64,000 nucleotides of DNA, taken from the NCBI RefSeq assembly GCF_032884065.1, contig NC_088867.1:47194185-47258184 (forward strand). The letters run 5' to 3'. Below the pieces are notes generated by a model. The model did not search any database. It saw only the letters and a list, made by a program, of their open reading frames with translations, and was not told where the DNA came from. This document shows, in pieces, positions 30,536 through 60,122 of this stretch. How positions within the stretch are numbered: the first letter of the stretch is position 1; every line of letters starts with the position of its first letter. The stretch is from Artemia franciscana. Its lineage: Eukaryota > Arthropoda > Branchiopoda > Anostraca > Artemiidae. The position numbers were made by a program, and so were the translations under genes.

Positions 30536-30563
30536 ATGGAGAAGGATTTAATTTGTGTTCCAG
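30536..30563 (+). CDS. EXOSC1: EXOSC1 coding exon 1
   Basis: Encodes MEKDLICVP plus the first base of Gly10. The donor is CCAG|GTGAGC. The next intron is 9805 bp. Confidence 0.88.

Positions 30564-60122: not shown

Follow-up and report, generated by a model that had tools for sequence, protein, structure and literature searches.

Does the EXOSC1/CSL4-like reading frame at this Artemia franciscana locus, cut into six pieces by long introns that carry transposable elements, belong to an intact gene, and does its intron load set it apart from other genes of the same genome? The original prediction saw in the window (the whole 64-kb stretch of DNA that was analysed) a full-length 201-aa CSL4 with consensus splice sites, and took it as a case of an essential RNA-decay gene tolerating heavy intron invasion.

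The six exons (Table 1) join into a coding frame of 606 nt, or 201 aa, whose sole stop is the terminal TGA. The introns between them measure 9805, 3751, 4051, 7981 and 3393 nt, as predicted (9.8, 3.8, 4.1, 8.0 and 3.4 kb), begin with GT and end with AG in five cases out of five, and lie in phases 1, 0, 0, 0 and 1. Compared with the human CSL4 chains in the PDB, the product matches over residues 6-193 of its 201 (E 1.2e-56), and it contains both the ECR1_N domain (PF14382; 48.8 bits, cut-off 27) and the EXOSC1/CSL4 S1-type domain (PF10447; 52.7 bits, cut-off 21.2). A role for the protein in the exosome cap is predicted. Frame, intron ends, phases, domains and homology all bear out the full-length protein; the claim of consensus splice sites fails at the fourth intron, to which we return below. 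Exon 1 was checked separately because it is tiny, using the coding-plus-donor motif TGY-[VIL]-CCN-G|GTR, which codes for C-[VIL]-P-G across a phase-1 donor. Over the two strands of the window the motif occurs once only, at 30554, and an in-frame ATG lies upstream of it at 30536.

Table 1. Features of the EXOSC1 locus, in window coordinates
Feature	Coordinates	Strand	Remarks
EXOSC1 exon 1	30536..30563	+	28 nt, MEKDLICVP+G, donor GTGAGC; identical (28/28) on the other allele
EXOSC1 intron 1	30564..40368	+	U2-type donor; repeats common to nearby sequence cover at least 46%
LINE 5' fragment	30570..32249	+	ORF1-like frame, weak zinc-knuckle match; internal short dispersed repeat (MITE-like)
EXOSC1 exon 2	40369..40490	+	Carries both synonymous allelic differences, at 40472 and 40475
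EXOSC1 exon 3	44242..44316	+	Part of joined frame
Intron 3 minisatellite	44974..47927		Units of about 123 and 139 bp, TA arrays on flanks
EXOSC1 exon 4	48368..48541	+	EXOSC1 Pfam match
EXOSC1 intron 4	48542..56522	+	U12-type by sequence: donor GTATCCTTT; branch-site-like TTCCTTAGT right before acceptor AG
hAT-like element	49573..54132	-	Intron 4; 4.56 kb; TIR, flanks ATCGACAC/ATTGACAC, 592-aa open frame with BED zinc finger (51721-53496)
EXOSC1 exon 5	56523..56604	+	Part of joined frame
EXOSC1 exon 6 and stop codon TGA	59998..60122	+	Part of joined frame

The search for a second locus that the original prediction proposed was run. A protein search of the whole genome at E up to 10 gave ten matches, which are exons 2-6 on the window's own sequence, C5 (five), and on contig C201 (five), exon 1 being too short for detection in this way; within that search, the assembly held no further copy of the gene. 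When 601 bp around exon 1 were searched, nine matches resulted: the window, a 93% copy at 7.696 Mb on C5, a dispersed element in six copies and, on contig C88, a scrap of 52 nt. These nine matches prompted the idea that exon 1 might itself be part of a transposable element, which we rejected, as the six dispersed copies align from 30570, inside intron 1. One of the six, on C7, initially matched from 30550 in the 601-bp search and aligned from 30570 on closer comparison.

The apparent second copies are best read as the other allele. C201 (112,882 bp) parallels the window from 40325 onwards and continues past the window's right end, with about 98% identity to C5 in the gene and 81-99% beyond it among the listed pieces of at least 400 nt, lowest in tandem repeats. 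To the right of the window, a satellite with a period of about 149-150 bp (L023:148-2993) occupies about 9.5 kb on C201 and 2.8 kb on C5. The other exon 1 (C5:7696561-7696588) lies about 40 Mb away, on a 29,126-bp contig (C5:7682492-7711617) that matches the window, with insertions and deletions, from 16614 to 40324. The simplest reading is that this contig and C201 would together make up the other allele, and that scaffolding would have put its left half, the contig, in the wrong place. A partial second locus, in which the piece at 7.68-7.71 Mb is a segmental duplication and C201 was broken at its edge as assembly graphs break at repeats, would account for the greater divergence of the left piece, whose identity is for the most part 89-97% and falls to 84% in a single 1.1-kb stretch, against about 98% for C201 beside the gene. 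We consider it unlikely. Both ends of the 29,126-bp piece directly abut 100-N gaps, leaving it isolated between them, and C201 begins at 40325, the very base after the piece ends; stretches of 92-95% identity also occur on C201 further right, so that allelic divergence of this order is found here. On the same contig ends and adjoining base we rejected a duplication of the gene. With one split, partly misplaced second allele, the annotation should hold one intact CSL4 gene and not two, and counts of duplications would misread this arrangement.

Assembled from exon 1 of the misplaced contig and exons 2-6 of C201, the other allele's coding sequence is likewise 606 nt long and differs from that of the window at two positions, ACG/ACA and AAA/AAG. 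Both changes are synonymous, none is nonsynonymous, and the two alleles encode the same 201 aa. Right of 40325, non-coding sequence differs at 109 of 15,957 positions (0.68%), a count that leaves out the minisatellite and one 0.2-kb length difference, and exons 2-6 differ at 2 of 578. The exon rate is lower, but not significantly so (P 0.25), and we rejected the idea that the raw rates reveal stronger constraint on exons than on introns. At the intron rate, about 3 nonsynonymous changes would be expected against the zero observed (P about 0.04). The introns of the other allele measure 15,073, 3738, 4514, 7977 and 3192 nt, the first of these being taken from coordinates across the misplaced contig. 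The third is thus 463 nt longer than in the window, and the sums are 34,494 nt for the other allele and 28,981 nt for the window. This is an example within one individual of alleles with identical proteins and a 5.5-kb difference in total intron length.

We are therefore highly confident that the locus is an intact animal orthologue of EXOSC1/CSL4, an RNA exosome cap subunit, single-copy in the assembly and with four major-class introns and one that looks U12-type. We infer that it is transcribed and spliced and that it uses the minor spliceosome. A decayed or silent relic that has kept an intact appearance strikes us as extremely improbable, as frame, splice sites and protein have been maintained on both alleles and the assembly search gave no other EXOSC1 gene copy.

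The repeats that were predicted in the introns are real. Measured by sharing with nearby sequence, a small comparison set, repeat coverage of introns 2-5 is 10, 0, 0 and 3%. The LINE fragment of intron 1 begins 6 nt into the intron, and the alignments of all six dispersed copies compared start at one and the same base; this insertion and its MITE-like repeat are common to both alleles. Other copies of the LINE have an ORF1-like frame, in which the zinc-knuckle match is weak and below cut-off, and a second frame that we take to be endonuclease-like. Most of intron 3 is made up of the minisatellite (2.6 kb) and its TA arrays, and introns 4 and 5 hold reverse-transcriptase scraps, both under the Pfam cut-off. 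An Rfam search of the window gave no match. The element called a hAT in the original prediction has terminal inverted repeats of 26 bp that are 100% complementary, and its flanks match by eye at 7 of 8 positions as an 8-bp target-site duplication; no exact duplication was found at any length from 2 to 13. In its 592-aa frame, Pfam recognised zf-BED alone and no hAT dimerisation domain, and we therefore call it only hAT-like and probably decayed. Inside it, at 50058-51057, lie two 293-bp direct repeats, 96% identical and 707 bp apart, a pair that may mark a small element flanked by long terminal repeats.

Elsewhere in the window, a 196-bp tandem duplication with 99% matches (13247-13638) lies inside open frames near a reverse-transcriptase fragment. 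On the minus strand, at 542-1108, a BTG-family frame carries the whole BTG domain in one uninterrupted run of 189 codons (PF07742, 128.7 bits).

The history that we propose is a simple one. The introns would have been enlarged by insertions of LINE, MITE-like and hAT-like elements and by the minisatellite, as is common in large genomes, and all five (four major-class and one minor-class, U12-type) would be excised and the six exons joined. The inserted repeats would leave with the introns, and the protein would therefore be unchanged. The absence of lesions from the exons despite these repeats, already noted in the original prediction, is confirmed by two alleles that give the same protein with a first intron of 9.8 and 15.1 kb.

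Whether such introns are unusual was judged against genes with an RNase_PH domain in the same genome, a small sample of 12 matches in which the distance between matches is an upper bound for a single intron. Where matches read as consecutive portions of a single domain, the spacing is 5.7 kb on C7 and 3.5 and 5.1 kb on C11. On C2 a weak pair is separated by 8.6 kb, with part of the domain missing between, and two matches 7.1 kb apart on C7 both cover the domain start and may be two domains or two genes. Not every gene is intron-rich, as one match, on C4, spans positions 2-130 of the 130 in a single exon. The EXOSC1 introns (3.4-9.8 kb) overlap the range of 3.5-5.7 kb, and the two longest exceed the clean pairs. 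A study of 24 genomes found that, for both intron classes, mean length correlates with the size of the genome (PMC7367187). On this correlation and the RNase_PH comparison, EXOSC1 is therefore read as an ordinary gene, correctly annotated. Its intron load seems typical of genes in an animal genome of 1.27 Gb and does not suggest a special tolerance of invasion. The original prediction is in sum a correct annotation of an ordinary CSL4 gene, intact on both parental chromosomes.

Intron 4 is the one that departs from the major-class pattern. U12-type introns have the donor consensus RTATCCTTT and the branch site consensus TTCCTTRAY, the latter near the acceptor. The donor of intron 4, GTATCCTTT, agrees with the U12-type consensus at 9 of 9 positions and with the U2 consensus at 3 of 6, whereas the four remaining donors agree with these at 4-5 of 9 and 5-6 of 6 positions, respectively. 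Before its acceptor, TTCCTTAGT matches the branch consensus at 8 of 9 positions, imperfectly and near the AG; the corresponding score is 6 of 9 in each of the four remaining introns. By chance, branch-like sites that score 8 precede 24 of the 655 pyrimidine-rich AGs of the window. Both the donor and the branch-like site are found on both alleles. The minor spliceosome of this organism is seen through its U12 snRNA only, for which the genome has a gene at 98.6 bits (cut-off 53) and a second match at 70 bits. Judged by its sequence, then, the intron looks to be of the U12 type. A U2-type intron with a weak donor, U12-like by chance, would fit the imperfect branch-like site and the fact that the 9-mer GTATCCTTT is seen twice in the window, where about 0.8 occurrences are expected on both strands. 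We hold this to be improbable: ATCCTTT stands at +3 to +9 of a GT that is fixed by homology, for which the chance is about 1e-4 from base composition, exon 4 ends in TG and not AG, and in human EXOSC1 a U12-type G|GT-AG intron lies between exons 7 and 8 (PMC10853781). A U12-type example, GTATCCTTTT, is printed in PMC7367187. The minor-class assignment adds a plausible intron of this kind to EXOSC1 of Artemia, as in human. In Roifman syndrome, a disease of the minor spliceosome, EXOSC1 is among the genes with fewer correctly spliced transcripts (PMC4667643).

The scrap on C88 may be a trace of the gene's own RNA. These 52 nt (C88:31206-31257; L045:307-358) are identical to the other EXOSC1 allele and match the window at 51 of 52 positions. 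They comprise 3 nt before the ATG, the entire exon 1, GTGAGG and 15 nt of the intronic LINE, and they end in GATT, the first four bases of a different LINE family, giving a 4-nt microhomology. A search with that family gave 28 matches (C88 itself, the two EXOSC1 alleles and 25 others); 17 of the 25 others start exactly at GATT, 13 of these 17 at 94-97% identity. The C88 copy probably arose as a chimeric insertion, through a template switch onto EXOSC1 RNA that had not been spliced; a DNA-level origin of the piece is possible. The more specific account, to which we give about an even chance, is that the piece is a fossil of EXOSC1 pre-mRNA: during insertion of the LINE at a new site, its reverse transcriptase would have passed, by way of GATT, from the 5' end of the element's RNA to an EXOSC1 transcript not yet spliced, and copied this up to a point 3 nt from the start codon. 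If true, this would show germline transcription of EXOSC1 exon 1 and would suggest that an EXOSC1 transcript may have a leader of only about 3 nt.

Set beside known systems, the Artemia gene shows a familiar plan. Its product is colinear with human EXOSC1/CSL4 (PDB 6d6q chain I, 6h25, 2nn6), with the ECR1_N and EXOSC1 domains common to both. It is one residue shorter where human QSNYLL corresponds to QSYLL, and its C-terminus is slightly longer. Six coding exons were found in Artemia, and the gene, like its human counterpart (PMC10853781), has a probable U12-type intron. Large animal genomes have long, repeat-filled introns, and EXOSC1 fits among them; nothing in our small comparison was found to set it apart. 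The C88 chimera has its likeness in human LINE-1 insertions. The LINE is that of another genome, and the human cases (PMC13174262) likewise have an intact LINE 5' end fused in sense orientation to the first exon of a gene. That study catalogues 17 chimeras with gene 5' ends, for which its authors favour splicing over template switching. By contrast, the C88 piece is unspliced, retaining the donor and 15 nt of the older LINE of intron 1, and its 4-nt microhomology points to template switching and not to splicing.
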